A DNA stretch of 62,094 nt from Deltaproteobacteria bacterium. GTDB taxonomy: Bacteria > Desulfobacterota > Binatia > HRBIN30 > JACQVA1. Below are positions 797 to 62,094 of the stretch, in pieces. Location of the stretch: NCBI GenBank assembly GCA_016210005.1, contig JACQVA010000184.1, positions 1 to 62,094 on the forward strand. Reading direction: 5' to 3'. Position 1 is the first letter of the stretch. Every line of letters begins with the position of its first letter. Below the pieces are notes generated by a model that saw only the letters and a list, made by a program, of their open reading frames with translations, made no database searches and was not told the origin of the DNA. Made by a program: the position numbers and the translations under genes.

Positions 797-2728
797 ATGA
801 CATTATTCGAACGAACAAGAATCGGCACCATGGAGGTCAAGAATCGCGTCGCCATGGCGCCGATGGGGACAGCCGGGCTGGCCGACAGCGATCTCGGCTA
901 TTCGCGCCGGCTGATCGAGTTCTATGCGGCGCGTGCCCAGGGCGCCACCGGCATGATCATCACCGGCGCCGCCATCGCCAACACCCGGCTCGAAGGCGGC
1001 CTCGCGCACTTCTTGCCCCGCCTCGATAGCCCCAAGTACGTCTCGCGCTTGAGCGAGCTGTGTGATGCCGTCCACCACTACGATGCCAAGCTGGTGTTGC
1101 AACTGAGCGCCGGCTTCGGCCGCGTCAATTACTTGCTCGGCAATACCATCCTGCCGCCGATCTCGGCCTCGGAGGTGCCCTGCTTCCATGACCCCAGCGT
1201 CACCACCCGTGCACTAACGGTCGAGGAGATCGGCGAGCTCATGATGTCCTTCGCCATGGCAGCAGCCATGGCCAAGATGGCCGGCGTCGATGCCATCGAG
1301 ATCCAGGGCTACGGCGGCTATCTCATCGATCAGTTCCAGAGCGCACTGTGGAACCGCCGCACCGACCACTACGGCGGCGATCTCGATGGCCGGCTGCGCT
1401 TCTCGCTCGAACTCATCGGCGCTACCCGCAGCCTGGTAGGGCCGGATTTCCCGATCATCTACAAGTTCACTCCCGATCATTACATACCGGGCGGACGCCA
1501 ACTCGACGAGGGCCTGGAAATCGCCCGCCGGCTCGAACGCGCCGGGGTCGACGCCCTGCACGTCGACGGCGGTTGCTACGAAGTGTGGCACCGCGTCATC
1601 CCCAGTATGTACGAGGCCCAGGCCTGCCAGATCCCGCTGGCACAAGCCGTAAAACAGGTAGTGAAGCTGCCGGTCATTGCCCACGGCAAGCTCGGCAACC
1701 CGGCGGTGGCGAAACAAGTCATCGAGGACGGCCAGGCGGATTTCGTCGCCCTGGGCCGGCCGCTGCTCGCCGATCCGGCGTGGGCCAAGAAGGTGAAGCA
1801 AGGGCGCATCGGCGACATCCGGCCGTGCATTGCCTGCAACGAAACCTGCCTGGGTAAGAAGTTCTACGTCAGCTGCACGGTCAACCCGCAGACCGGCATG
1901 GAACGCGACTACGCGCTGGTGCCGGTCGGGCGTAAGCGCAAGGTGCTGGTCATCGGCGGCGGTCCGGGCGGCCTGGAAGCGGCGCGGGCCGCCGCCGCTC
2001 GCGGTTGTGAGGTCACGCTGTGGGAGCAGACCGCTCGCCTGGGCGGCAAGATGCACGTCGCCGCGGTGCCGGAGTTCAAGCGCGACATTCGGCCGCTCAT
2101 TCGCTTTCTCTCTACCGAGGTCGAGAAGGCCGGCGTCAAGGTGGAGTTGCAGAAGGCCGCCACGCCCACGCTGGTGCAGCAACACCGGCCCGACGTGGTG
2201 ATTGTCGCCACCGGCTCGCAATTCAAGCTGCCGGCGGTGCCCGGGGTGGAGAGCCGGCACGTGCTCAATACCGTCGAGTTGTACCAGCGGCCCGAGTCGC
2301 TGGGAGAGCGGGTGCTGGTGGTCGGCGGCGGCCTGTGCGGCTGCGAGGCGGCCGTCTACCTGGCGCAGCAAGGCCGGCGGGTGACCATCGTCGAGATGAT
2401 GCCGGAGATGGTGCCGCAAGGCAGTAAGACCATCAACACCATCCTGGCAATCAAGGCCCTGCTGGCGCAAGCTCAGGTGACCGTGATGACCAGCACCAAG
2501 CTGGTCGAGATCACCCCCCGCGGCGCGATGGTCGAGCGCAACGGCGGCCGCGAGGAACTGGCAGCGGACAGCGTCGTCATCGCCACCGGCTTCACCCCCG
2601 ATCTCACACTACGTGATGCGCTGGAGCAGCTGGGGACGGAGGCGGTCGCCGTCGGCGACTGCAACCGGCCGCGCACCATCCAGGAGGCGATTTGGGAAGG
2701 CTATCACGCCGCCCGCGTGATCAGCTGA
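797..2728 (+). CDS. NADH:flavin oxidoreductase / 2,4-dienoyl-CoA reductase-like, Fe-S flavoenzyme
   Basis: A 643-residue two-part flavoenzyme of the FadH/BaiCD/2-enoate reductase type. The N-terminal ~350 residues form an Old Yellow Enzyme TIM barrel (IEIQGYGGYLIDQF, SALWNRRTDHYGG). A 4Fe-4S cysteine cluster follows (CIACNETCLG and a further Cys in YVSCTVNP). The C-terminal half is a pyridine-nucleotide disulphide-oxidoreductase fold with two dinucleotide motifs (VIGGGPGGLEAA and VVGGGLCGCEAA). The family reduces C=C bonds of enones or enoyl-CoAs using NAD(P)H through FMN, FAD and the Fe-S cluster; the substrate cannot be told. The start at ATG 797 is supported by AAGGAG at 783-788; the frame is open to 728 but that extension is Arg-rich and unlike the family. 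It is probably monocistronic. Confidence 0.9.
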   Translation: MTLFERTRIGTMEVKNRVAMAPMGTAGLADSDLGYSRRLIEFYAARAQGATGMIITGAAIANTRLEGGLAHFLPRLDSPKYVSRLSELCDAVHHYDAKLVLQLSAGFGRVNYLLGNTILPPISASEVPCFHDPSVTTRALTVEEIGELMMSFAMAAAMAKMAGVDAIEIQGYGGYLIDQFQSALWNRRTDHYGGDLDGRLRFSLELIGATRSLVGPDFPIIYKFTPDHYIPGGRQLDEGLEIARRLERAGVDALHVDGGCYEVWHRVIPSMYEAQACQIPLAQAVKQVVKLPVIAHGKLGNPAVAKQVIEDGQADFVALGRPLLADPAWAKKVKQGRIGDIRPCIACNETCLGKKFYVSCTVNPQTGMERDYALVPVGRKRKVLVIGGGPGGLEAARAAAARGCEVTLWEQTARLGGKMHVAAVPEFKRDIRPLIRFLSTEVEKAGVKVELQKAATPTLVQQHRPDVVIVATGSQFKLPAVPGVESRHVLNTVELYQRPESLGERVLVVGGGLCGCEAAVYLAQQGRRVTIVEMMPEMVPQGSKTINTILAIKALLAQAQVTVMTSTKLVEITPRGAMVERNGGREELAADSVVIATGFTPDLTLRDALEQLGTEAVAVGDCNRPRTIQEAIWEGYHAARVIS

Positions 2729-3144
2729 CCGTGACCGCGGCCCGGGCGCAGCCAGCGGCCTGCCGCAGCGCGCGGGCCGCATACACCCGCGTTAGGTGAG
2801 CGCGCTATTCGGCCGAGGCAAACAGATCCGAGAGCACCGTGACGCCCTGTGCCACTTGCTGCGTTGCGGCTGTATAGCAACGGCGGTTCGGGCCTTTGGT
2901 TCACCAGCGCCGCCGCCGGTCTCCTACAACGGATTGAACGGATTAAAGGGATCGAGCGGAACTGGACGCCGACCTTTGCCCCAGGCTACACCAGGCGCGG
3001 GATCGCATCTTCTTGGTTCTTGGCCTAATTCGCGCACCTTCGGGCGCGCTGCGCGCTCTTGCTCTTGAGACGTCGGCTGTTGCTTTGGTGCATCAGCCAG
3101 CATAAACTTCATCCGCAAATGATGAGATGTCTATGGAGGTAACG
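2729..3144. other. 416-bp intergenic region, no convincing gene
   Basis: No frame here resembles a known family. A 64-codon minus-strand frame (2924-3118) exists, but its C-terminal end (DPFNPFNPL) simply translates a 9-bp degenerate repeat, so it is not called as a gene. The end of the region (3135-3140, GGAGGT) is the ribosome-binding site of the next gene. Confidence 0.6.
2931..2957. repeat. short 9-bp degenerate tandem repeat
   Basis: Three consecutive 9-bp units begin with GGATT or GGATC: GGATTGAAC, GGATTAAAG and GGATCGAGC. The array is short and degenerate, with no visible function. Confidence 0.55.
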
Positions 3145-3846
3145 ATGCTGACGAGAAGGAACCTGGCACTTGGGGTCATAGCCGTCCTAGTGGTCTCCTC
3201 TTTGTCCGGCTGCGCGGCCTGGCAGAACACGTCGCGGACCACCAAGGGCGCAGTGCTCGGAACAGCGGGGGGCGCAGGAGCCGGAGCCGCAATCGGCGCG
3301 ATCGTCGGCGGTGGCAAGGGTGCCGGCAAGGGCGCTGCCATCGGCGCGGTGGTCGGCGGCCTCGCCGGTACGGGCATCGGCTACTACATGGAACAGCAGG
3401 CAAAGGAGATGGAGGCGGTTCTCGCCGAACAGGACCGCCTGCGCCGCCGCCAAGATCAACTCGACATCGAGCTTTCGAGCGACGTGCTCTTCGAGTCCGG
3501 CAAAGCGTACCTTCAACCCGGCGCGCGCGACAAGCTCGCCCGCTTCGCCGGCGTGCTCAATCGCTACCCGGAGAGCCGCGTCGCGGTTGTCGGGCACACC
3601 GACAACCGCGGCAGCGACGAGCTGAACTACAGCCTATCCAAACAGCGCGCCGACGCGGTGGCGTCCGTTTTCTCGGCGAGCGGCGTATCGCCAAGCCGCA
3701 TGACTACACTCGGCGAGGGGAAGTCGCGCCCCGTGGCCACCAACGAGACTCCGGAGGGTCGCGCGCAGAACCGGCGCGTCGATGTGCACGTGATGCCCGC
3801 CGATCAGGCCGGCTCGCCAGCGGGTGCTGGGTCGGAGCCTTACTGA
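3145..3846 (+). CDS. OmpA-family lipoprotein with glycine zipper
   Basis: A 233-residue lipoprotein. It starts with a signal peptide and lipobox (SLSGC), then a glycine-zipper segment rich in Gly/Ala (residues ~35-80: AIGAIVGGGKGAGKG, AVVGGLAGTGIGYYME), a short coiled-coil-like region (EAVLAEQDRLRRRQDQL) and a C-terminal OmpA-like peptidoglycan-binding domain (SDVLFESGKAYL, VVGHTDNRGS, NRRVDVHV). Members tether the outer membrane to peptidoglycan. The start at ATG 3145 is chosen because GGAGGT lies 4 nt upstream; an in-frame ATG at 3127 has no such site. A second OmpA-domain protein lies 0.8 kb downstream. Confidence 0.9.
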   Translation: MLTRRNLALGVIAVLVVSSLSGCAAWQNTSRTTKGAVLGTAGGAGAGAAIGAIVGGGKGAGKGAAIGAVVGGLAGTGIGYYMEQQAKEMEAVLAEQDRLRRRQDQLDIELSSDVLFESGKAYLQPGARDKLARFAGVLNRYPESRVAVVGHTDNRGSDELNYSLSKQRADAVASVFSASGVSPSRMTTLGEGKSRPVATNETPEGRAQNRRVDVHVMPADQAGSPAGAGSEPY

Positions 3847-3980
3847 TACGTTCGGGAAGACTCCGATCCGCCAATCGCCGAGGTGGCGGCCGGTACAGCG
3901 GTGCACGCTGCCGTACCGGGATCTAGACGTATGGTCGCCCGGATCGCGTCCATCCTTTGATGCCAGCGAAACCCGGCGAC

Positions 3981-4412
3981 TCAGTCACAGTTGCCCAGGC
4001 GTTTGCCCTTCCACTTCGTCTCCATCGTCATCGCCTGCGGGCCCATCTGCATGTTCACCGTCATGCCCCCTTCGACGCTATCGCCGTGCCCGGTCAGCGT
4101 CGCGCGCCCCTTCATCTCGGGACCCTTCGCACCTTTGCAGGTGACCTCGAAGGTGTGCGTATTCCCGGAGACCTCGCGTCCGCTCAGCGTGCAGTGGCCA
4201 TCCTTGGTCAATCCCTTCATCGCGTTGTCGGGATCGGTATCCTTCTCCGTGAGGCACTTCGTCTGAGTCTTGGTCTGCGGCTGCGGCATTACCGACATGA
4301 CCGAAGTGGTCTCGAACTGCCACTTCCCGGCCCTCATCTCGAAGGCGGCGAAGACCGCAGCGGGCGCGAGAGTAACGGCAGCGGTGACAAGCGTAACACG
4401 AATGCCAAACAT
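3981..4412 (-). CDS. DUF3617-family periplasmic protein
   Basis: The 143-residue protein has a signal peptide ending near PAAVFA and then the DUF3617 pattern: MRAGKWQFETT near the mature start, QTKCLTEKD, HCTLSGREVSG and FEVTCKG. The conserved cysteines (in KCLTE, HCTL, VTCKG and the C-terminal NC) fit a small disulphide-bonded exported protein. Its function is unknown in the family. A GGAGGGATCC ribosome-binding region directly precedes ATG 4412. It is convergent with the upstream OmpA lipoprotein gene. Confidence 0.8.
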   Translation of the reverse strand: MFGIRVTLVTAAVTLAPAAVFAAFEMRAGKWQFETTSVMSVMPQPQTKTQTKCLTEKDTDPDNAMKGLTKDGHCTLSGREVSGNTHTFEVTCKGAKGPEMKGRATLTGHGDSVEGGMTVNMQMGPQAMTMETKWKGKRLGNCD

Positions 4413-4622
4413 GGATCCCTCCCCGATCGGTTCCGGGCACCTTACCAGTTGAGCGGCCTAGTGCAACCGATTACTTTTGGACCGGAAGGTCGGCGGGCCG
4501 TCCCTTGACAGCGGGTTCAAGCGCGTTCTAAGGGGTGGTGTGTCCAAGCGCACTAAGGTAGACGCCTCATTTGTCATCGTGCAATCGGCGGAGTCGTCCA
4601 TGAATGAGAGGAACGACAAGGC

Positions 4623-5900
4623 GTGAGACCAGCCTGGTTCGCGGCCAGCATCTATTCGATCGCGTTGTTCGTCGCGGTCGACCTCGCCGCATCCTCTGAC
4701 GGCAGGGCCGAGCCGCCCGCGGGTTCAGAGAAACTCGTGCTGGCGGCGGAGGTGGCGGAACGTATTGACTACCTGACGTTCGCACAGGGGGCGGTACCGA
4801 TCCGGGTTGGCGGCGCGGGGGCAAAGCAGGGCGCCAACTTCGAGCATGCCGTCCGTGTCATCGACGGCGACGCCACGAGCTTCTCGATCGTCAGCAAGGC
4901 AACGGCCGGGACCGACACCGAATTTGTCTATATGTTGCCGGCGCCCACGACGTTCGATCGGTTTGCGGTACCGGGCATCCTGGAGACGCCAAGCCCATCC
5001 ACGACGTTCACTCGCCTGGTCGAGGTGCACGGATCCGCGACGGGTCCTGACGAGGGATTTACGCTTCTTTCGTCCGCGACGCTGCATACGCATCGAAAAC
5101 GCGGCCAGGTAACGGAGCTCACAGTCGCATGGAAGCGTCCGGTGCGCTGGGTCAAAGTACGATTGGTGGGCGGCATCGAGATGCTACGGCCCGAGATGTC
5201 GTTGGAATTCAGCGAGATCATCGGTAACGGCACACAGGAATCGCCGCCGCTAGCCGAGTATTTCACCGGCGCCTGGCGCGGTGCGGGGGTGAAGCTCGAG
5301 ATGAAACAAGCGGGCCCTCTCGTGTCCGGTTGTTACGACAACAGCGGAGACCTCAAGGGGACCGTGAGCGGCAACATCCTGCAGGCCACTGGAGTCGACC
5401 GCTCCGACGGTGTACAGAGCACTTTCATACTGTCCGTGGTTGACGATGGAACGATCCGCGGAGTCCGCTCGACGAACAAGGGACCCTTCCGACTCTACAC
5501 CGGGCCGACCGCAGCTTCCGGTGCGGCTTCCATCTGCAAAGATCCCCCGGCGCCGAGACTCGGTTGCGGTTCCATCATTCACGGGATTCGTTTCGCGTTC
5601 GATTCCGCCGAGATCCAACCAGCCTCCGAGCCGGTCCTCGCCGAGCTGTTCAAGGGACTCAAGTCCGACCCCAGCGGCGCAATCATCATCGAAGGTCACA
5701 CCTCGAGCGAGGGCTCGGACAGCTACAACCAGGAGCTCTCGGAGCGGCGAGCCCGCGCGGTCGTGGAGGATCTTGTGCGGCGCGGAGTGGCCGCGAATAG
5801 AATTAGTGCCGCCGGGCTAGGGGAACGCCGTCCAATTGCCGGCAACAACGACGAGAGCGGCCGCTCGCTGAATCGCCGAGTCGAGGTCCGTTGCCGATGA
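4623..5900 (+). CDS. exported protein with C-terminal OmpA-like domain
   Basis: A 425-residue protein starting at GTG 4623, with an N-terminal signal-like segment (FAASIYSIALFVAVDLAA). Residues ~45-205 look like a beta-rich sugar-binding-type (discoidin-like) domain (TTFDRFAVPGI, KRPVRWVKVRLVGG), though that assignment is tentative. A second beta domain follows (EYFTGAWRGAGVKLEM ... VSGCYDNSGDLKGTVSGN). The last ~105 residues are a clear OmpA/MotB peptidoglycan-binding domain (IRFAFDSAEIQPAS, IIIEGHTSSEGSDSYN, LNRRVEVRC). It probably anchors an outer-membrane or periplasmic recognition module to the cell wall. There is no good SD before GTG 4623. Confidence 0.8.
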   Translation: MRPAWFAASIYSIALFVAVDLAASSDGRAEPPAGSEKLVLAAEVAERIDYLTFAQGAVPIRVGGAGAKQGANFEHAVRVIDGDATSFSIVSKATAGTDTEFVYMLPAPTTFDRFAVPGILETPSPSTTFTRLVEVHGSATGPDEGFTLLSSATLHTHRKRGQVTELTVAWKRPVRWVKVRLVGGIEMLRPEMSLEFSEIIGNGTQESPPLAEYFTGAWRGAGVKLEMKQAGPLVSGCYDNSGDLKGTVSGNILQATGVDRSDGVQSTFILSVVDDGTIRGVRSTNKGPFRLYTGPTAASGAASICKDPPAPRLGCGSIIHGIRFAFDSAEIQPASEPVLAELFKGLKSDPSGAIIIEGHTSSEGSDSYNQELSERRARAVVEDLVRRGVAANRISAAGLGERRPIAGNNDESGRSLNRRVEVRCR

Positions 5901-5980
5901 AGACAATCCGGCGCAGCTCTTTGAATTCATTACGATCGACGGTCTGAGAACGCTCTCAACTCGACCGGAGGTGGACGGAG

Positions 5981-6421
5981 GTGGATACTGCCTCTCGATT
6001 TTCGAGACGACGACGCCGTATCTGGAGAACGCGCATCGCCAGCGTTTTGATCTTGGCCTCATCGGTCTTCTCCGGGTGCGGGTACGGCAAGGCCGGTGAG
6101 CCCTGCCAACGCACGGGCGACGGTTTCCTGGCGCATCACAACTGCGAGACGTTTTGTTTGTCTTTCCCCATTTCTTGTCCCGACGGGTCCAGTGGCACAC
6201 CGAACCTCTGCGCCGGGAAAGAGAGCTGCGTGGAGGGGGAATGCCCCGTGGGCCAGGTGTGTATCCGGGTAAACGTCGACCGCTCGTTCTGTGTTCCCGA
6301 CACGATCTGCCCAACGTGGCGCCAGATCGGCGTTCCGAATCCCGTGCTTACGCCCGATGCAGAGATCAAGCGTCAGATGAGCGCACCTCGCCGCAACCTC
6401 AAACCCGTCGATACGCCGTGA
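5981..6421 (+). CDS. small Cys-rich lipoprotein
   Basis: A 146-residue protein starting at GTG 5981, preceded by GGACGGAG. After an Arg-rich n-region comes a hydrophobic signal with a lipobox-like FSGC. The mature part carries about a dozen cysteines spread in a knottin-like manner (GEPCQRTGDGF, CETFCLSFPISC, NLCAGKESCVEGECPVGQVC). Such proteins are common on the surface of myxobacterial and deltaproteobacterial-like cells. Its function is unknown. Its stop codon overlaps a possible GTG start of the next gene (GTGA at 6418-6421), suggesting co-transcription. Confidence 0.65.
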   Translation: MDTASRFSRRRRRIWRTRIASVLILASSVFSGCGYGKAGEPCQRTGDGFLAHHNCETFCLSFPISCPDGSSGTPNLCAGKESCVEGECPVGQVCIRVNVDRSFCVPDTICPTWRQIGVPNPVLTPDAEIKRQMSAPRRNLKPVDTP

Positions 6422-6444
6422 GCGCAGAACTCGAACGGAGATGC

Positions 6445-7587
6445 ATGGCAGCGGAAAGGCTCGCGGCCCGCACGCACACGCCCCTGCGCTTTCTGGTCGC
6501 AAGCTTACTCGCGCTTCTGCTCGCGCGTCCGACTCTGGCGTGTCGATGCGTACCTCAAACACTCGATCACTACTTCGAACGCGCCGATCTGGTCATGGTG
6601 GCGCGCACTGTATCGACCCGCATCGTCAAGGGATCGCCGGACTTTCGAACGGCTGAGTTCGCGCCAGTCCAGGAACCTTACAAGGGCGACCCGAAGTCGA
6701 TCGTTGCCTTTGCCACGCATCTTTCGTCGGCCAGTTGCGGAGTACCGGTCGAGGCGGGACAAATGTTTCTGATCTTCGCCGCGCGCGACGAACCCGGCGG
6801 GACCACAGCCTGGTTCGACTCCTGCAATGGAACCCGTCCCTTCGGCCCCGATGTGAAGGTCGTCGACTTCGTCGACACGCCGGCGGAGAAGATCCTTCTC
6901 CGCCTCGAGGGGTTGCGCACCGCCAATGCGGTTCGCGATCCGAGCGCGAATCCCGGCGGACCACGCCTCCCGAAGCCCGGCCATCCGCACGCCGAGTTGA
7001 TCGGATTGCTCGAGCTTGTGACGGTGTTGAATCTCGACGAACCTGGCGCCTCATCACCACCACCGCGCCTGCCCTCTGCGGTGATCGAGGTGATGGCTTC
7101 GCCGGAGTCCGGGGCCGCAGTGGTCGCCCAGATTCGTCTTCCGACCGATATCATCACGCGAGAATTGGACTACGAGAGGAAGGCGGCCGTCGTGCTAGAG
7201 CAGCGAGCCGCTTGGTATCGGATCGCGCTGCCCCACGATCGTAGCGGATGGCTGAGCGCGCGCCTCGCTGGTCCTTTCCACCCGTTCGCGGAGCTCATCG
7301 TAAATCGCCTGTCCTACTTGACGGCCCATTGGGATGGCTGGATATGGCCCGATCCAGGCGCCGGCAACCCAGTGAATGCGAACGTGAAGCAGAGCGAGGG
7401 ACGTCACGAGTACCCGGTAAACGTGCGCGGCACTCAGGACCTCGCTGGCACGCTCTGGCTCCAAGTCGAAATATTGAGTGCGAGCCCGTGCGAAGGTGGA
7501 TCGCCGAAGACAGTAATAAGCGGTTGGGTGCCTGCCTATTCACCTGAAGGAAAGCTTACCGCCTGGTTCTATTCGCGTGGATGCTGA
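6445..7587 (+). CDS. secreted TIMP/netrin-like domain protein
   Basis: This 380-residue protein has a signal peptide ending in LARPTLA, so the mature protein would begin CRC. The residues that follow (CRCVPQTLDHYFERADLVMVARTV) and a later SCGVPVEAGQMFLIFAAR segment follow the layout of TIMP/netrin-type (NTR) domains, in which an N-terminal C-x-C and a 'G..YLIFA' strand are hallmarks. A C-terminal region (WYRIALPHDRSGWLSARL) looks like an SH3-type wall-binding domain. ATG 6445 is chosen for the SD-like CGGAG 5 nt upstream and the signal peptide directly after it; GTG 6418 overlapping the upstream stop is an alternative. The frame is open to 6154 but that part overlaps the upstream gene. The NTR assignment is by eye. 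Confidence 0.65.
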   Translation: MAAERLAARTHTPLRFLVASLLALLLARPTLACRCVPQTLDHYFERADLVMVARTVSTRIVKGSPDFRTAEFAPVQEPYKGDPKSIVAFATHLSSASCGVPVEAGQMFLIFAARDEPGGTTAWFDSCNGTRPFGPDVKVVDFVDTPAEKILLRLEGLRTANAVRDPSANPGGPRLPKPGHPHAELIGLLELVTVLNLDEPGASSPPPRLPSAVIEVMASPESGAAVVAQIRLPTDIITRELDYERKAAVVLEQRAAWYRIALPHDRSGWLSARLAGPFHPFAELIVNRLSYLTAHWDGWIWPDPGAGNPVNANVKQSEGRHEYPVNVRGTQDLAGTLWLQVEILSASPCEGGSPKTVISGWVPAYSPEGKLTAWFYSRGC

Positions 7588-10726: not shown

Positions 10727-11776
10727 TCATTCTCTGAATTCCGCGCAGCCGTTGGGCACTACCTCGAGCGGCGGATCGCGAACTTGTGGCGCGAGTCGCA
10801 GCACGCGAAATTCGGGTACCGGAATGCGATCGAGCATGACGTAGGCCTTGCCAAAACGGTCCCCGCGTACGACCACGTCACCGGAGAAGAGCCCGGCATA
10901 GGGATCGACGCTGACGCTCTTGGGGTGGACCGCGTAGAGCGTGATGCCGCCGCCGTCATCGGAGAGGAACATGCCGTACTCCTGGAGCGCCCGGGCGATG
11001 ATTCGCTCGGTTGGCGTGAGGCCGAGCCTGTCGAGATCCAACGCCGGATTGAGTTGAATGCGTGCGCCTTCCGGAATCGCGCCGGCACGCACCGAATCAC
11101 CGTCGCTTTCAGTCGCAGGCGGGACTGGTCCTCCGGCTTTCGTGTTCGAGTAGCTGAAGCTCAAGGCGTGCGAAATCCTGCCTGCCCGCAGTTCGTCCGG
11201 CCAGATCATGCCCGCCAGCAAGCCGAAACCCGACCCACGCGCTGAAACACCCTTCGGAAACACGCCATCACTATCGGTGTTGAGAGCGTTACCCCACGCT
11301 GCCGTCCATCGTCCGAGCGCCTTGCGGGCGCGCCAGAAATCATACTCGCAGCCCGAGGTGAGATCGATAATAGCCATGTGCCGATCGCTCATCGCGTCGG
11401 GCGTGGCAAATGACGGAATCGGCACACCCTTCATCGTTCGATACGGTGCCCACGACGCCGTCAGGCGGACGTCGTAGCGCTTTGTGTTTGCGCTCGCGTA
11501 GTAGACCGGAACCGTCCACTCTTTGACCGTCATCAGGAATCCCTGCTTCCTGGCTTCCTCGATCAGGCTGCCCACCATCGCGGCCGAGCCCGGATCGACG
11601 GCGGGATTGGGAGGGATCATACGGTTGAATGGGCTTTCAGGGCTGTAAAGGGGAGGATGGAGGAGTGCCGCTGGTTTGCTCTCGGCAGCAGCCAACTGCG
11701 GTTGCGCCGGCGCGTACAAGGCCGCAGCAACCAGCACAGCCGCGGATACCACTACGAGACGTTTGCGGTTGAACAT
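10727..11776 (-). CDS. conserved secreted protein of unknown function
   Basis: A 349-residue exported protein: signal peptide (VVSAAVLVAAALYAPAQPQLAAA), then a globular region with distinct conserved-looking blocks: SPFNRMIPPNP, DRHMAIIDLTSGCEYDFWRA, GSGFGLLAGMIWPDEL, ISHALSFSYSN, and DDGGGITLYAV near the end. These blocks (WPDEL, ISHAL) occur in a family of actinobacterial and other secreted proteins for which no function is known to me. The start at ATG 11776 has GGGGAGG 6 nt upstream; the frame runs on to 12046 but the extension is low-complexity Arg/Gly. No neighbour suggests its role. Confidence 0.6.
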   Translation of the reverse strand: MFNRKRLVVVSAAVLVAAALYAPAQPQLAAAESKPAALLHPPLYSPESPFNRMIPPNPAVDPGSAAMVGSLIEEARKQGFLMTVKEWTVPVYYASANTKRYDVRLTASWAPYRTMKGVPIPSFATPDAMSDRHMAIIDLTSGCEYDFWRARKALGRWTAAWGNALNTDSDGVFPKGVSARGSGFGLLAGMIWPDELRAGRISHALSFSYSNTKAGGPVPPATESDGDSVRAGAIPEGARIQLNPALDLDRLGLTPTERIIARALQEYGMFLSDDGGGITLYAVHPKSVSVDPYAGLFSGDVVVRGDRFGKAYVMLDRIPVPEFRVLRLAPQVRDPPLEVVPNGCAEFRE

Positions 11777-17903: not shown

Positions 17904-18821
17904 ATGGGTGCGTTACGAATGGACAAGCAGAGGGTCTTGCAGGCGGTGGTGGCGGCGTTGGTGGTGTTGCTGGCACGACGGCCGGTGCTCGGCGTAACCA
18001 TCGAGGTCGGTTCGGCGTCGTTGGAGCCCGGATCGAGCGTCGAGATCATGGTCAGCATGGGGCTCGGCGCCGGCGAGCACGTTGCCGGCTTTCAAGCCGA
18101 TATCCAATTTGATCCGGCGCTGGTGATGGTCAGCGGCTGCCGCATCAATCCGGATATCGGTCCGGGATCGCTGGCTGACAAGACGCTCAGCACCTCGCCG
18201 GCGCGGGGCCAGCCGTTTGTGCGCAACATCATCTTCTCCGCCAACAACGTCGCCGCAATTCCCGCCGGTGTGCTCTACGCCTGCACCTTCAGCATCTCGC
18301 CAGATGCCGCGGGCTCGATAGTCCTGCAACCGACACGGATCATTGCCTCCGATCCCAAGGGCGGGCGGCTGCCGGTATCGGGGACCGCCGGCACCATCTT
18401 CGTTAGCGGCGCTACGGGTGAGGCGGGCGGCCGCGGCCCGCGTCCGCTCGCGCCGGTACAGCCGCGTGCAGTTGCGCCCGCACCGGGTGCCGCGCCTGCT
18501 CCCGGGCTTGGCGCGGCGCCAATGCCACCAGCCGAATCCGCGCCGCCGGCAGCCGGCCGCGAGTTGGCCGAGCCGGTAGAGGAAACCACCCCGGAGCCCG
18601 AGCCGACCATTGCTGCAACTGCGCTGGCGAGCAAGACCGGGGCGAAGGGCTCGGCAACCCCCGGCACCCCGACGCTCAAAGCAACCGCGGCCACCACCAC
18701 GACCCCGATGGCTAGCGGGACGCCGGGCACGGCAACAGCGGCACCGGGCACGCCCGCGCCAACCATGGCCACGCCAAAGGCATCGCCGAAGGCTGCTAAG
18801 AAGACGCCCGCGCAGCGATGA
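17904..18821 (+). CDS. secreted cohesin-like domain protein with Pro/Thr-rich tail
   Basis: The 305-residue protein has a signal-like segment (VLQAVVAALVVLLARRPVLG), followed by a cohesin-type beta domain: SLEPGSSVEIMVSMGLGAGEHVAGFQADIQFDPALV, AAIPAGVLYACTFSISPDAAGS and GGRLPVSGTAGTIFV. Cohesins bind dockerins or act as surface adhesion modules. The C-terminal ~110 residues are rich in Ala, Pro and Thr (GTATAAPGTPAP) and probably form an unstructured or glycosylated spacer, ending in a basic KKTPAQR. GGGGGTT precedes ATG 17904. A truncated relative sits at 58224-58535. Confidence 0.7.
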   Translation: MGALRMDKQRVLQAVVAALVVLLARRPVLGVTIEVGSASLEPGSSVEIMVSMGLGAGEHVAGFQADIQFDPALVMVSGCRINPDIGPGSLADKTLSTSPARGQPFVRNIIFSANNVAAIPAGVLYACTFSISPDAAGSIVLQPTRIIASDPKGGRLPVSGTAGTIFVSGATGEAGGRGPRPLAPVQPRAVAPAPGAAPAPGLGAAPMPPAESAPPAAGRELAEPVEETTPEPEPTIAATALASKTGAKGSATPGTPTLKATAATTTTPMASGTPGTATAAPGTPAPTMATPKASPKAAKKTPAQR

Positions 18822-57688: not shown

Positions 57689-57939
57689 GGTGCGGCGGAA
57701 TCATACGGGGCGAACGGCACATCGTTCAAGCCCGTGTTCGCAGCTCGTGTTCGCCGGCACGACCGTAACGGCCCGCGGGCCACGGCAAAGTCGTTCACGC
57801 GGGTTCCCGGGGTTATCGCGTTGCCGCGGCAACAGGTTTCTCTTTGAAAAGTTGGGGGTCGGGAGGGATTTGGTACCTCAAACAGGTGCGCGCTGCGAAT
57901 GTCGTTGCATAGCCCGATCGGCCTTCGTACAGGTTGGTC
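57689..57939. promoter_or_regulatory. divergent region with repeated leader sequence
   Basis: This 251-bp region lies between the ketosynthase operon (minus) and the truncated subtilase-like gene (plus) and must contain promoters for both. Its right end (from 57889) belongs to a segment repeated at 61450. The stretch TCTTTGAAAAG (57841-57851) is AT-richer than its surroundings. No operator can be named. Confidence 0.4.
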
Positions 57940-58223
57940 ATGAGAACCCCACGCCGGCTGGCGCTGAGCGCAGCCACCGCCTGGCTCGGAGCCGTGCTCG
58001 CAGTGGCGGTGGCCGCCGAGCCGCCCGGCAAGGATCGGCAGCCGCCCCGCCCGCCGGCGGTGGCGGGGCAGCTGCCGGTGCGCTTGCGTTCGGACTTCCC
58101 GGAATGCGCGCACTGTCTGGTGGCCAAGGGTGCGGGGCTTAAAGGCGTTACCGGCACGTACATTCTGGATCAGGTGCGGCTGAAGCACGGCATCACGCAG
58201 ATGGAGCCGGTGTTCGGCGGCGT
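57889..58223 (+). repeat. 335-bp direct repeat, copy 1
   Basis: This segment matches 61450-61784 without a gap at a constant offset of 3,561 bp. It contains ~50 bp of leader DNA and the first ~95 codons of the subtilase-like gene. Agreement is close in the leader and signal-peptide part and looser after ~58110, so the two copies have diverged. Similarity stops sharply after GGCGGCGT (58216-58223). Confidence 0.85.
57940..58223 (+). pseudogene. truncated subtilase (S8 peptidase) propeptide, chimeric 3' end
   Basis: Starting at ATG 57940 the frame encodes a signal peptide (ALSAATAWLGAVLAVAVAAEP) and a propeptide start (QLPVRLRSDFPECAHCLVAKG, LDQVRLKHGITQMEPVFGGV), matching the intact gene that begins at 61501. 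After 58223 the frame is open to 58521 but this part is antisense to a cohesin-like gene fragment and has no protease residues. The gene is therefore broken by rearrangement, with its catalytic domain missing. It may still produce a short exported peptide. Confidence 0.75.
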
Positions 58224-58535
58224 CCCGCTACAGCCGGCGGGCAAGAAGGCCAACGACAGCTCCTTGCTCAGTTGCTCTTCCTTGACGCAGGTGGCGATCG
58301 GGGTGTTCGCACTGTTGAAGCCGATGTCATTTTGGGTGGCGGCAATGCTCTTACCTTGCGGATCGAGCGTGACATCGAACCACACCGAAGTCCCGGGCTG
58401 CCCGCAGGCCTCACCCGCGGTGATGGTCTGTGCCGCCGCGGGCATGGCCAGCAAGGAAGACAGTACCGTGAGCAACAGCCCCGATCGTGCCCGCCGCAGC
58501 CGGCGGCGGGTCGCGCGATGATAATCAGCAGACAT
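58224..58535 (-). pseudogene. 5' fragment of a cohesin-like secreted protein gene
   Basis: On the minus strand from ATG 58535 (AAGGAGGG, 8-9 nt upstream, supports this over 58541) the frame encodes a signal peptide (SGLLLTVLSSLLAMPAAAQ) and the first part of a cohesin-type domain (GEACGQPGTSVWFDVTLDPQG, IAATQNDIGFNSANTPIATC, ELSLAFLPAGCSG). The remaining frame residues come from the subtilase repeat, so the gene was cut in mid-domain. The intact relative is at 17904-18821, which has the missing 'VLYAC...SISPDA' half of the domain. Confidence 0.7.
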
Positions 58536-58562
58536 TGCCATCCCTCCTTCAGCGCTCGGCGA

Positions 58563-59048
58563 TCAGCGTTGAGCGGCCGCGCTTCTCGCCTTCAGATAGG
58601 CGGCGCTCCACCAGCCCTCCCACTGCCCCTGGCGCCCGTGCGGATCGGAGAAGCTGCCGCTCAGCCGTACGCCCTGGATGGTGCCCTCGAAGGCACACAG
58701 GGATTGTCTACCCGCCGGCGACTCCGCCCGGGTCGATACCAGCCGGAAGCCGATTTGATCGCCGTCGACGGTGCCTGCGAGATCGGCCGGGCCGCCATCG
58801 CCCATGCCCTTCATCGTCCGCACGCCGCTGAGGGCGCCGCCGGGGCTCACTTGGAACCGCGCCGCCCGCCGCCCGCTCGCCTGCTGCCCGTTCTCGTCCA
58901 GCGCATCTACGCCAACTTGCCACGTGCCGTTGGCGTTCATGGCGGTTACCTCCGGCGGCTGAGCGGAGGCGCGGCTTGCCGCGCCCAGCACTAGCGCCAC
59001 ACCCGATACGGCGATTCGCATCAGTTGTTGTCTGCCGCCGCCCGTCAT
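58563..59048 (-). CDS. small secreted beta-rich protein, unknown
   Basis: A 161-residue protein with a signal peptide (VSGVALVLGAASRASAQ) and a body rich in Gly/Asp turns (MNANGTWQVGVDALDENG, GALSGVRTMKGMGDGGPADLAG, IGFRLVSTRAESPAG, FEGTIQGVRLSGSFSDPHGRQGQWEGWW). The repeated 'G..I.G..L.G.F.D' style resembles small beta-barrel or lipocalin-like extracytoplasmic domains. No family recognised. It lies upstream of, and in the same direction as, the cohesin fragment, probably with it as part of a former operon. Confidence 0.55.
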   Translation of the reverse strand: MTGGGRQQLMRIAVSGVALVLGAASRASAQPPEVTAMNANGTWQVGVDALDENGQQASGRRAARFQVSPGGALSGVRTMKGMGDGGPADLAGTVDGDQIGFRLVSTRAESPAGRQSLCAFEGTIQGVRLSGSFSDPHGRQGQWEGWWSAAYLKARSAAAQR

Positions 59049-59173
59049 AGTGTCGTCCCTCTCTTCCTCGGGCGCTAGCGGCCAATGTTGCCGCTATACC
59101 CGATCGACAATGTGATCGTCCAGTAGCACAGATCAGTGAATGTACAGGGTAACGAAAAGGTACCAAGTACTTC

Positions 59174-59223
59174 GTACCGGTCCTGGTCCTACAGGACCCA
59201 GTTACCAGGACCAGGACCGGTAC
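59174..59223. repeat. perfect 17-bp inverted repeat with 16-nt loop
   Basis: GTACCGGTCCTGGTCCT (59174-59190) and AGGACCAGGACCGGTAC (59207-59223) are exact reverse complements. The loop (59191-59206) also contains AGGACCC, and the arms themselves hold short repeats of GGTCCT, so several alternative hairpins are possible. No T-run follows the stem. It may be a transcription-stopping hairpin or a mobile-repeat end. Confidence 0.85.
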
Positions 59224-59645
59224 TAGGACCCGGGCCGCTGCAGGGCCGTGGTCGCCACGGCGCGCCGCGAGCGCCCGCCACCGTGGCCTCAGCCAAAGGC
59301 ATGGAAAAGAAAGCCCGCGCCCTCGACGTGAAGCAGCTGCTGGCGGCGGCAATGAAGAAGTGATCGGCTGCTGCGCTCGCTCAGAGAGATGGCGCGGGTC
59401 CGTCGGCTCACCGCGTGCGCCCCCTGCGGAGCTAGAGTCTGGCCGCGAGATTGCGGTCGCCGACTGACGGCCGGCAACTTCGCCCGCTCGCTTAACGCTG
59501 CGGGGTTACCGGTTGACTCCGCAATAATTGTGATCGCTTGACTTCAACACCTGCTTTTGGCATCTGCGGGGCCGATGCTTGTGTAACTTAACCTTGACGG
59601 GTCGCACAGCCGGGAGGGCGTGATGCGCAAGCGGTTGACAGCACT

Positions 59646-59678
59646 GGTCACCGGTCACCGGTCACCGGTCACCGGTCA
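59646..59678. repeat. 7-bp tandem repeat (GGTCACC), ~4.7 copies
   Basis: Four full GGTCACC units (59646-59673) and a partial fifth (GGTCA) lie in a row. Since the unit is itself palindromic at its centre (GGTNACC), the array can fold in several ways. Such short arrays often vary in copy number between strains. Confidence 0.85.
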
Positions 59679-59790
59679 GTAAGGGCGATTGCCCTGGTTG
59701 TACTGCTTTGTCAACTGCTGTGGGCGCAGGAGCCGCCGGTGCGGCGGTTCTTTTATTGTCGCGCCCCTCTTCCCGTCGCCGGAGGTACTC

Positions 59791-61440
59791 ATGAGACGAA
59801 TGGGTAACGGCCGGTGTGCGCCTATTCTCGTGCTGGCTGCCCATAAGTTGGTCGGCGAGGCGTTTGCTTGTAGCCTTCGACTCACCACTGCGCTGTGTGC
59901 GCCGCTGGCCGCCTTTACTGCTGGAGCTGTAGCCAGGCTGGCGGAGCAGTTGACTGCTGCGCCCGAGCTGGCGATCGTGATCAGCCCCGATGTCGCCGTC
60001 TTGACTGGGGCCATTCGCGCGCTCAAACGACAATGGCCCACGGTGAGGGCACTGGCCGTGGCTGTGCCGAACCAGGAGACTGCGCTGATCTCGGTCGACA
60101 CGCTGCGCGCGGACCATCTCGGGAGCTACGGCAGTTCAGAGAGCCTCACGCCGCACCTCGACCGTCTGGGAGCCGACGGCGTGGTGTTTGAGCATAGCAT
60201 CACGTCGTCACCGTGGACGCTGCCGGCGATGGCATCGCTGTTTACCGGCCTCTATCCCCGCCACCACGGCGCGGGAACCATCACCAACCATCGCACGCCT
60301 CTGGGACGCGCGCCGCTACCCCCCGGCTCGTGGACCGTCGCCACGGCCTTGCGCGAACGCGGCTATCGCACGCACGCCATCGTGACCAATCCCTATCTCG
60401 CCCTGCATTATGGCTTGGGCGAAGGGTTCGATGCCTACGAGAACATCACGATTGAGTCGGAGGCTTTCCTGTCATTTCGGGAGACGACGGCCGGTCGGTT
60501 GCTCAACTGGCTGCGTCCCGATCTCGTGATCGGCGACCGCGGGGAGACGGTCAGTCGACGGGCGCAACAGTGGCTCGCCACCGTCGACCCGGCACAGCCA
60601 TTCTTGCTGTGGCTGCACTACCTCGACCCGCATCCGCCTTACAGCCGCGCCGGGGTCACGAGGCACAAGAGCCTCCGCGGGGACATGGCCTTCGAACCGG
60701 CCACCGCGGGATCGGCGCCGCTGAGTCTCACGTCGCCCGACGTGGCCCGGCTCCGCAGTGGGGAGATTCGGCTGAGCGACGCAGAGAAGGAATCGGTTCG
60801 CACGTTGTACCGTGCCGAGGTGGCGAGCGTGGACGCCGCTATTGGCTCGGTACTCGATGCGCTCGACGCCCGCGGCTTGCGGGAGCAGACCTTGGTGGTC
60901 TGCATCGCCGACCACGGCGAGGAATTCTGGGAGCACGGCGGTGTCGAGCACGGGCACACGGTGTACGAGGAGCTGGTGCGCGTGCCGCTGCTGATGCGCT
61001 GGCCGGGCAGATTGCCGCACACGCGCATCGGACAGCTGACCCGTATCATCGACGTGGCGCCGACGATTCTCGACCTGCTCGGCCCCCCGGCACCGGCGGG
61101 CCTTGACGGCACGTCGCTGGTGCCGCTTCTTCGCGGCGAGAAGGTGGCGCCACGAACTGCGCTGACCGAGAACATGCTGTTCGCGGAGGAACGCGTTGGG
61201 CTGCGCACCGCCGGGCACAAGTACGTTCGCTGGCCCTCGGGCAAGGAGGAGGTGTACAATCTGCTCCAGGATCCGCGGGAGCTGCGTGATCTGGCGGGTA
61301 TCGATGCCGCCGTCAGCCCGTTGCGCCAGCTCTTCGCCGAACTCGACCGTAGCACCATCGTGCGACCCGAGAGCGTGCTGGCGCCGGCACTGGGCGAGAA
61401 GACCCGGAGTGCGCTGCGGGCACTGGGGTATCTGCACTGA
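59791..61440 (+). CDS. sulfatase-type hydrolase with receiver-like N-terminal extension
   Basis: A 549-residue protein starting at ATG 59791, with GGAGG five nt upstream. From ~residue 97 it is an alkaline-phosphatase-superfamily sulfatase: ALISVDTLRADHLGSYG (metal Asp), SPWTLPAMASLFTGLYPRHHG, DHGEEFWEHGGVEHGHTVYEELVRVPLLMRWPG (metal Asp/His). The canonical sulfatase C/S-x-P-x-R is replaced by PWTLP, as in related sulfatase-like hydrolases that probably use Thr. Residues ~1-95 (ILVLAAHKLVGEAFACSLRL, AELAIVISPDVAVLTGAIRALKRQWPTVRALAV) resemble a degenerate receiver (REC) domain without a phosphorylatable Asp. This join may be an old recombination product. Confidence 0.78.
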   Translation: MRRMGNGRCAPILVLAAHKLVGEAFACSLRLTTALCAPLAAFTAGAVARLAEQLTAAPELAIVISPDVAVLTGAIRALKRQWPTVRALAVAVPNQETALISVDTLRADHLGSYGSSESLTPHLDRLGADGVVFEHSITSSPWTLPAMASLFTGLYPRHHGAGTITNHRTPLGRAPLPPGSWTVATALRERGYRTHAIVTNPYLALHYGLGEGFDAYENITIESEAFLSFRETTAGRLLNWLRPDLVIGDRGETVSRRAQQWLATVDPAQPFLLWLHYLDPHPPYSRAGVTRHKSLRGDMAFEPATAGSAPLSLTSPDVARLRSGEIRLSDAEKESVRTLYRAEVASVDAAIGSVLDALDARGLREQTLVVCIADHGEEFWEHGGVEHGHTVYEELVRVPLLMRWPGRLPHTRIGQLTRIIDVAPTILDLLGPPAPAGLDGTSLVPLLRGEKVAPRTALTENMLFAEERVGLRTAGHKYVRWPSGKEEVYNLLQDPRELRDLAGIDAAVSPLRQLFAELDRSTIVRPESVLAPALGEKTRSALRALGYLH

Positions 61441-61449
61441 CACGAGGCA

Positions 61450-61784
61450 CGCGCTGCGAATGTCGTTGCATAACTCGATCGGCCTTCGTACAGGTTGGTC
61501 ATGGAGACCCCCCGCCGGCTGGCGCTGAGCGCAGCCACCGCCTGGCTCGGAGCCGTGCTCGCAGTGGCGGTGGCCGCCGAGCCGCCCGGCAAGGATCGGC
61601 AGCCGTCCCGCCCGCCGGCGGTGGCCGGGCAGCTGCTGGTACGCTTGCGTTCGGACTTCCCGGAATGCGCGCACTGTCTGGTGGCCAGCGGCCGGGGGCT
61701 GACCGCTGCCACCGGCACGCGGGTTCTCGATCAGGTGCGGCTGAAGCACGGCATCACGGCGATGGAGCCGGTGTTCGGCGGCGT
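61450..61784 (+). repeat. 335-bp direct repeat, copy 2
   Basis: Second copy of the segment at 57889-58223 (constant offset 3,561 bp), carrying leader DNA and the 5' end of the subtilase gene. Here the frame continues as expected for a subtilase propeptide, so this copy is the intact one. Confidence 0.85.
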
Positions 61785-62094
61785 GCATGCGGCCGAGCGG
61801 CGCAAGGCGGCGCAGCAGCGCTTCGGGGCCAAGGGGGCAAGAGGCGGTGCGGGGACTGTAGATCGTCGACTGTCGACCGTCGACTTGTCCCAGATCTATC
61901 TGGTGCGCGTGGATCCGAAGGCCGATGTGTTGAAAGTGGCCGCTGACTTCCGCCGCGACCCCAACGTGGTGTCGGCCGAGCCGAACTATCTGTACTCGAT
62001 CAAGTCGACAGGTGACCTCAGTCCGGAAGTGAACCTCGCGCCAAGGCGCAAAGCCGCAAAGCAGAGTACGGTCTCCGAAGAGGCGTCGCCAGCA
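61501..62094 (+). CDS. subtilase (S8 family) precursor, 5' part
   Basis: At least 198 codons from ATG 61501; the gene leaves the window at the right edge. It encodes a signal peptide (ALSAATAWLGAVLAVAVAAEP) and a propeptide of the fervidolysin/inhibitor-I9-like type (QLLVRLRSDFPECAHCLV, LSQIYLVRVDPKADVLKVAADFRRDPNVVSAEPNYLYSI). The last residues are a spacer before the catalytic domain (expected D-T-G, H-G-T-H, G-T-S-M), which lies beyond the edge. The propeptide predicts a subtilisin-like secreted protease; a protease inhibitor alone is less likely because of the signal and length. Confidence 0.75.
   Translation, partial: METPRRLALSAATAWLGAVLAVAVAAEPPGKDRQPSRPPAVAGQLLVRLRSDFPECAHCLVASGRGLTAATGTRVLDQVRLKHGITAMEPVFGGVHAAERRKAAQQRFGAKGARGGAGTVDRRLSTVDLSQIYLVRVDPKADVLKVAADFRRDPNVVSAEPNYLYSIKSTGDLSPEVNLAPRRKAAKQSTVSEEASPA

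Follow-up and report, generated by a model that had tools for sequence, protein, structure and literature searches.

Several described systems offer analogues for parts of the locus considered here. Subtilisin-like serine proteases with a fervidolysin-type prodomain are recognised by PF00082 and PF22148, the former being the Peptidase_S8 family, which we take to be family S8 of MEROPS. Non-cellulosomal cohesin and dockerin modules are said to have been described by Peer and colleagues in 2009. In Campylobacter fetus, the S-layer sap genes form a paralogous surface-protein family with conserved ends and variable middles, which is kept alike by recombination. The locus itself lies in a 62,094-nucleotide stretch of DNA from a Deltaproteobacteria bacterium of the class Binatia (contig JACQVA010000184.1 of assembly GCA_016210005.1), hereafter the window, which is the entire contig C184 of a 5.9 Mb genome in 268 contigs (97.6% complete, 4.5% contamination). 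At 58223 the 5' part of a subtilase gene breaks off and joins antisense cohesin-like DNA. We consider it very probable that this chimera is the remnant of one of three four-gene units, called A, B and C below, after a deletion of about 6.3-6.6 kb and with the history proposed here for all three.

The complete unit can be read from two other contigs of the same genome, C157 and C159, on which a subtilase gene converges on a gene for a large EF-hand protein; upstream of the latter, on its own strand, stand a cohesin-like gene and, beside it on each contig, the end of a gene of the 161-aa family. The subtilase bodies (1,099 aa on C157, 1,059 aa on C159) match Peptidase_S8 at 1e-63 and 1e-54, and the prodomain of unit B is Fervidolysin_NPro-like (PF22148, E 7e-6, above the family cut-off in Pfam), so that the likeness to subtilisin-like proteases with a fervidolysin-type prodomain extends to both domains; unlike those proteases, the full forms on C157 and C159 add PD40 repeats and a C-terminal EF-hand-like (dockerin-like) pair, while the copy at the junction is reduced to a leader and part of the prodomain. 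The small cohesin-like proteins (182 aa on C157, 177 aa on C159) have no Pfam or NCBIfam match at E up to 0.1. A profile made from eight of the ten own-genome matches to the cohesin-like protein recovers solved cohesins (5n5p at E 2e-8 in two partial stretches, 6kg8 at 4e-6, 6kgc at 5e-6), which bears out the 'cohesin-type' label given to the antisense gene in the initial annotation. A further cohesin-like domain lies at 17922-18407 of the window, in a 362-aa frame (26% to the C157 protein), and six more distant ones are found on other contigs.

With a profile of four of the EF-hand pairs, the best PDB match was a dockerin at 2.8e-5, and because general EF-hand proteins follow from 8e-5 (best 60 of 280 matches) we call the pairs dockerin-like and do not class them as dockerins. 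For the large EF-hand protein (907 aa on C157, 835 aa on C159) no relative of known structure was returned at E up to 0.01; its match to CSLREA is below the cut-off and we do not claim a beta-helix for it. In having a small cohesin-like protein encoded beside proteins with paired EF-hands, and in its profile matches to solved cohesins and, weakly, to a dockerin, the unit resembles non-cellulosomal cohesin/dockerin modules, but it contains no cellulase, its partner genes encoding a protease and a large protein of no known family. Intact units would supply a protease for secretion together with an EF-hand protein for which the small cohesin-like protein may be the docking site, so that their products might form a surface or secreted complex of the cohesin-dockerin type with a protease in it.

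The subtilase leader occurs three times in the genome. Two copies lie in the window, at 57889-58223 (+; copy 1, unit A, with about 51 bases 5' of the ATG, a signal-peptide-like start and the first part of the prodomain) and at 61450-61784 (+; copy 2, unit B). As originally reported, they can be aligned gap-free with a fixed offset of 3,561 and agree at 306 of 335 bases (91.3%), and among offsets of at least 400 this is the top ungapped direct match of 335 bases in the window, the runner-up (206/335, offset 4,540) lying inside ketosynthase genes. A count of substitutions and a search for further copies, both proposed with the initial annotation, gave 29 differences between copies 1 and 2 and a third leader, that of unit C, at positions 8301-8635 of contig C190 (85% to copy 1, with homology beginning at 57883). 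The differences are clustered, 17 of the 29 falling in 58127-58167, and the two copies share an identical run of 93 bases, a length reached in 0.145% of 20,000 random placements. Subtilase B, with its signal-peptide-like start and prodomain, extends from 61501 to 62094 (+) and is cut there because the window is the whole contig. Of the 'one broken, one intact' subtilase first described, the broken gene is confirmed, while the second runs off the contig and would be intact only to judge from the frames of C157 and C159, which are open through the 72 bases shared with the window.

Copy 1 breaks off, again as first described, after GGCGGCGT at 58223. To the left of this point it is homologous to fuller relatives in its own genome (C190 together with C157/C159), the homology stopping before the S8 domain; to the right, 58221-58845 matches C157:635-1, taken as reverse complement, at 84.6%, and the cohesin and 161-aa side aligns to C159 at 69% over a shorter stretch. 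Judged from the paralogues, the subtilase and cohesin sides of this deletion junction overlap by three bases (CGT, 58221..58223), which we judge to be near chance for a blunt illegitimate join. The open frame of the broken subtilase (57940..58521, +, gene start at ATG 57940; 195 aa when counted from TTG 57934 in the list of open reading frames) begins in the leader, crosses the junction, continues in antisense cohesin-like DNA and has no catalytic domain. On the minus strand, the cohesin-like remnant (58221..58541) retains the start of the gene and about half of the domain, 107 codons against 182 in C157, at 91-92% protein identity to the C157 protein, and a chimeric frame of 123 aa (58170-58541) crosses the junction. 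There are no stop codons in the remnants of unit A and both strands are open across the junction; in GC-rich DNA this is weak evidence of function. To the right of the cohesin-like remnant lie an intact 161-aa frame (58563..59048, -) and the 5' region of that gene (58993..59355, -; 91.8% to C179:12-378), which is repeated at both ends of contig C179 and which we take as the far end of unit A. From left to right, unit A therefore has the subtilase leader on the plus strand and, past the junction, the cohesin-like remnant and the 161-aa gene on the minus strand, closing with the 5' region, in which there is a palindrome, an order that gives both ends of a complete unit without its middle.

In proposing how this arrangement arose, we suggest that a four-gene unit of secreted proteins would have been duplicated to give the three paralogous copies, that sequence exchange between copies would have left B and C with alike ends and divergent middles, and that one illegitimate deletion, of the microhomology type, would have taken place in unit A (57.9-59.4 kb) from the subtilase prodomain to the cohesin-like gene. 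This event would also have removed the large EF-hand gene and would have spared, besides the subtilase leader, only the front half of the cohesin-like gene together with the 161-aa gene. By coordinate arithmetic, the loss measured against unit B and C157 comes to about 6.57 kb, made up of the 310 bases that follow copy 2 in C184 and of 6,964 - 635 - 72 in C157, and against C190 and C159 to about 6.3 kb; from a formerly complete unit it would have taken the subtilase catalytic domain with the PD40 part and tail, all of the large EF-hand gene and about 75 codons of the cohesin-like gene. The initial annotation had seen a duplication followed by a rearrangement that destroyed a subtilase and a cohesin-type gene. 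Its duplication stands, as does the loss of most of the subtilase and of the end of the cohesin-type gene, but the duplicated object would be an entire unit of four genes, of which there would be three copies, and the rearrangement a single internal deletion.

Several observations support this model. Copy 1 is joined to homologues of both ends of the gene order on C157 and C159. On either side of the junction the sequence is set apart from the other copies (91% and 85% for the leader; 84.6% to C157 and, over a shorter stretch, 69% to C159 for the cohesin and 161-aa side). Moreover, three is the count of leaders, of closest cohesin-like genes (at 99, 91 and 54%, with 35% for the fourth of ten own-genome matches) and of palindrome cores in the 5' region.

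A junction of this kind might instead be a misjoin between different copies of the unit, and an assembly of 268 contigs with 4.5% contamination, in which contigs do break at copies of the unit, invites that reading. Yet the real breaks have overlaps of 141 bases, against three bases common to the parents at the junction, and words of 15, 21, 25, 31, 51 and 141 bases taken across it have no second occurrence, in either orientation, elsewhere in the window or in C190, C157, C159 or C179. Within 100 bases of the junction the longest exact matches are 50 bases (C190) and 30 bases (copy B) on the subtilase side and 28 bases (C157) on the cohesin side, with 10 bases for C159. Both sides are private sequence, neither having been copied from C157, C159, C190 or unit B. 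A misjoin driven by repeats is unlikely because neither side is the same as in the other copies and none of the junction words recurs. In addition, the own-genome subtilase search (14 matches) returned close bodies on C157 and C159 only, the remainder including nine partial matches at 38-51% and two short matches at contig ends (C184 and C190); the missing piece of unit A is therefore not elsewhere in the assembly, which holds no cut-off close subtilase body that a misjoin could have left. We regard an assembly artefact as very unlikely.

Synonymous divergence (dS) speaks to the relationships between the units. Between leaders, dS is 0.14 for A-B, 0.23-0.38 for B-C and 0.45 for A-C; across the junction, in the cohesin part, it is 0.10 between A and C157, 2.2 between C157 and C159 and saturated between A and C159. 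The similar values on the two sides (0.14 and 0.10) suggest that A and the combination of B with C157 are sister units. As to a possible relaxation of selection after the loss, the ratio of nonsynonymous to synonymous divergence (dN/dS) in the leader is 0.66 for A-B, a figure clouded by a possible conversion tract at 58127-58167, against 0.15 for B-C and 0.17 for A-C. The synonymous values also bear on the proposal that a leader segment alone was transposed or duplicated beside a cohesin gene that was broken separately, with no ancestral full unit at that place. In its favour, the three leaders adjoin upstream genes that are all different (ketosynthase, sulfatase and Fic). Against this, the leader, cohesin end and 161-aa gene of unit A keep the order and orientation of the complete unit, divergence is similar on both sides, and the flanks of unit A (60 bases on the left against 120 on the right) have no shared word longer than 6 bases and so no sign of a target duplication. 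A history of this sort seems to us highly improbable, and deletion within a full unit remains the preferred account.

The units themselves are mosaics. In 150-base steps, C157 and C159 are 99-100% identical at both ends, 65-87% at the start of the catalytic region and mostly 40-55% (range 22-66%) from 1,501 to 6,600. Synonymous divergence also varies strongly along the units, with 0.68 over the first 317 aligned codons of the subtilase and 2.1 thereafter, 1.4 in the large protein and 0.046 in the tail of the 161-aa gene, where A-C157 stands at 0.51. The leaders of B and C likewise climb from 68-90% to 98-100% identity at the contig ends. Near-identical ends around divergent middles are the patchwork that conversion leaves, and for this reason we infer that the ends of units B and C owe their near-identity to gene conversion between paralogues. 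The suggestion that the 58-62 kb area is a hot spot for the shuffling of secreted proteins can be kept in the narrower sense of mosaic exchange between units (ends at 98-100%, middles mostly at 40-55%) and finds no support for anything broader; a mobile element is unsupported, the flanks of unit A being as described and no transposase or recombinase family appearing among the unit proteins scanned against Pfam and NCBIfam, to which this search was limited.

The contig ends indicate how units B and C may be placed. C184 and C190 end in 141 identical bases (61954..62094, +, in the window), C157 and C159, once reversed, likewise share their first 141, and the two pairs overlap by 72 bases (the last 72 of C184), from which would follow a 210-base identical tract of units B and C with contig breaks where a 141-base word becomes ambiguous. 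At their opposite ends, C157 and C159 carry 141 bases identical to each other and to the right end of C179, and at the left end of C179 this 5' region of the unit recurs in inverted orientation (95.5% to the right end over 333 bases, the first 93 bases being identical). The simplest layout would therefore run C184, body, C179, body inverted, C190, with B and C flanking C179 in inverted orientation. A 52-base inverted repeat (90% identical) lies at 10793-10844 of C179, on the outer border of the unit 5' region, and at 6263-6313 of C190, and may mark a site where units joined their surroundings.

Such a layout recalls an active, invertible switching locus driven by homology, in which B and C, inverted around the 11.4-kb C179 segment, would swap bodies between two leaders and so pair different protease, EF-hand and cohesin bodies with different leaders, unit A being a failed product and dead by-product of that exchange. 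Identical tracts of 141 bases do bound divergent bodies, each body contig overlaps exactly with both leader contigs and with one end of C179, and the C179 ends bear inverted unit 5' regions at 95.5%, the arrangement around C179 being one drawn from contig ends. However, any repeat longer than the assembly word would yield the same fork, the recombinase search covered unit proteins only, the leaders themselves differ (B-C dS 0.23-0.38), and the junction of unit A lies outside any identical tract. A cassette-exchange locus of this kind, and with it a by-product status for unit A, appears very improbable to us. The resemblance to the C. fetus sap genes extends to near-identical ends, divergent middles and a probable inverted arrangement of two units; the proteins belong to other families (S8, cohesin-like and EF-hand), and the likeness to switching loci is one of sequence patterns only.

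Several points weigh against the account of three units, exchange and one deletion. The former content of unit A is reconstructed from its paralogues, the deleted DNA being absent from the assembly. The junction at 58223 is read from the assembled contig and might, with low probability, stem from a chimeric molecule. The sister relation of A and B is based on 10 and 8 synonymous differences, which conversion can mimic, and between A and C157 the 161-aa gene has diverged further (tail dS 0.51). In copy 1, the short stretch 58127-58149 holds 11 changes, each either found in A alone or different in every one of the three leaders, a poor fit to simple descent. As to the layout, the left end of C179 joins the repeat through a 93-base exact match and not the full 141, and the joins of C184 to C157 and of C190 to C159 are not phaseable from the assembly. 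For the dockerin-like pairs, Dockerin_1 was matched at E 0.06, below the Pfam cut-off, and in the C157 subtilase only.

Further features accompany the units. The 161-aa frame of unit A would be the first gene of a minus-strand operon; its N-terminus resembles a signal peptide by reading (unscored), and the protein belongs to no Pfam or NCBIfam family at E up to 0.1. In its 5' region lies a palindrome with perfect 17-base arms (59174..59223, DNA fold z -4.7), perhaps a regulatory hairpin of this operon. Its 25-base core has three exact matches in the genome when up to three mismatches are allowed (C184 and both ends of C179; control 0), on which ground we take it as part of the unit and reject a dispersed REP-like repeat. 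It contains AGGACC repeats, and the C179 copies are at 195-244 and about 10,940-10,970, the arms at the right end being imperfect. A tandem CACCGGT array of about five units (59642-59678) stands just upstream of the sulfatase frame. Within subtilase B, a GTCGAC-rich short repeat (61854-61885) coincides with a 21-base in-frame insertion relative to C190 (gap 61853-61873), and a short repeat of the CGCAAAGC type (62039-62062) is read in frame in the linker between prodomain and catalytic domain, inside the tract common to the ends of C184 and C190. A short gapped match, 76% over 74 columns, also links these two leader-bearing contigs close to their left ends (73-146 of the window and 106-162 of C190).

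Comparison with other genomes returned homologues of single unit genes. Among 148 genomes of the class, own genome included in each count, homologues of the leader protein (E up to 0.001) occur in 12 (the other eleven at 27-42% identity), the 161-aa protein matches six and the large protein 25, most of the matches listed for the last covering the EF-hand module only; among 395 genomes drawn from the phylum, the leader matches three, again with its own included, at E up to 1e-5. We read 15 loci holding one unit-gene homologue, namely 14 from nine other genomes and one on contig C6 of the same genome, several of them cut by contig ends. They are a selection, with seven leader loci from six of the eleven other matched genomes and seven other-genome loci from among many matches to the large protein. 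None has a second unit gene (blastp at 1e-4, cohesin profile at 0.01), and among the loci read the four-gene unit is seen only in its own genome, in three copies. The paired EF-hand module, with the motif VTVDELVxGVN, gave 31-194 first-look candidates for the large protein per genome in the set G066-G078, of which six per genome were scored; it looks very abundant in the order and may represent a large dockerin-like repertoire outside cellulosomes.

The odd chimera is thus most likely a deletion in one of three copies of a cassette and not a new type of gene. The deletion itself is ordinary gene loss, and it is the mosaic, repeated cassette that is unusual. With protease, cohesin-like and EF-hand (dockerin-like) proteins encoded side by side, a direct test of binding outside cellulosomes is possible, and the strong mosaic pattern makes this a case in which recombination between paralogues can be phased with long reads. 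If cassette exchange does occur, it would amount to the shuffling of a secreted cohesin-dockerin-like complex, and not of a single surface protein.

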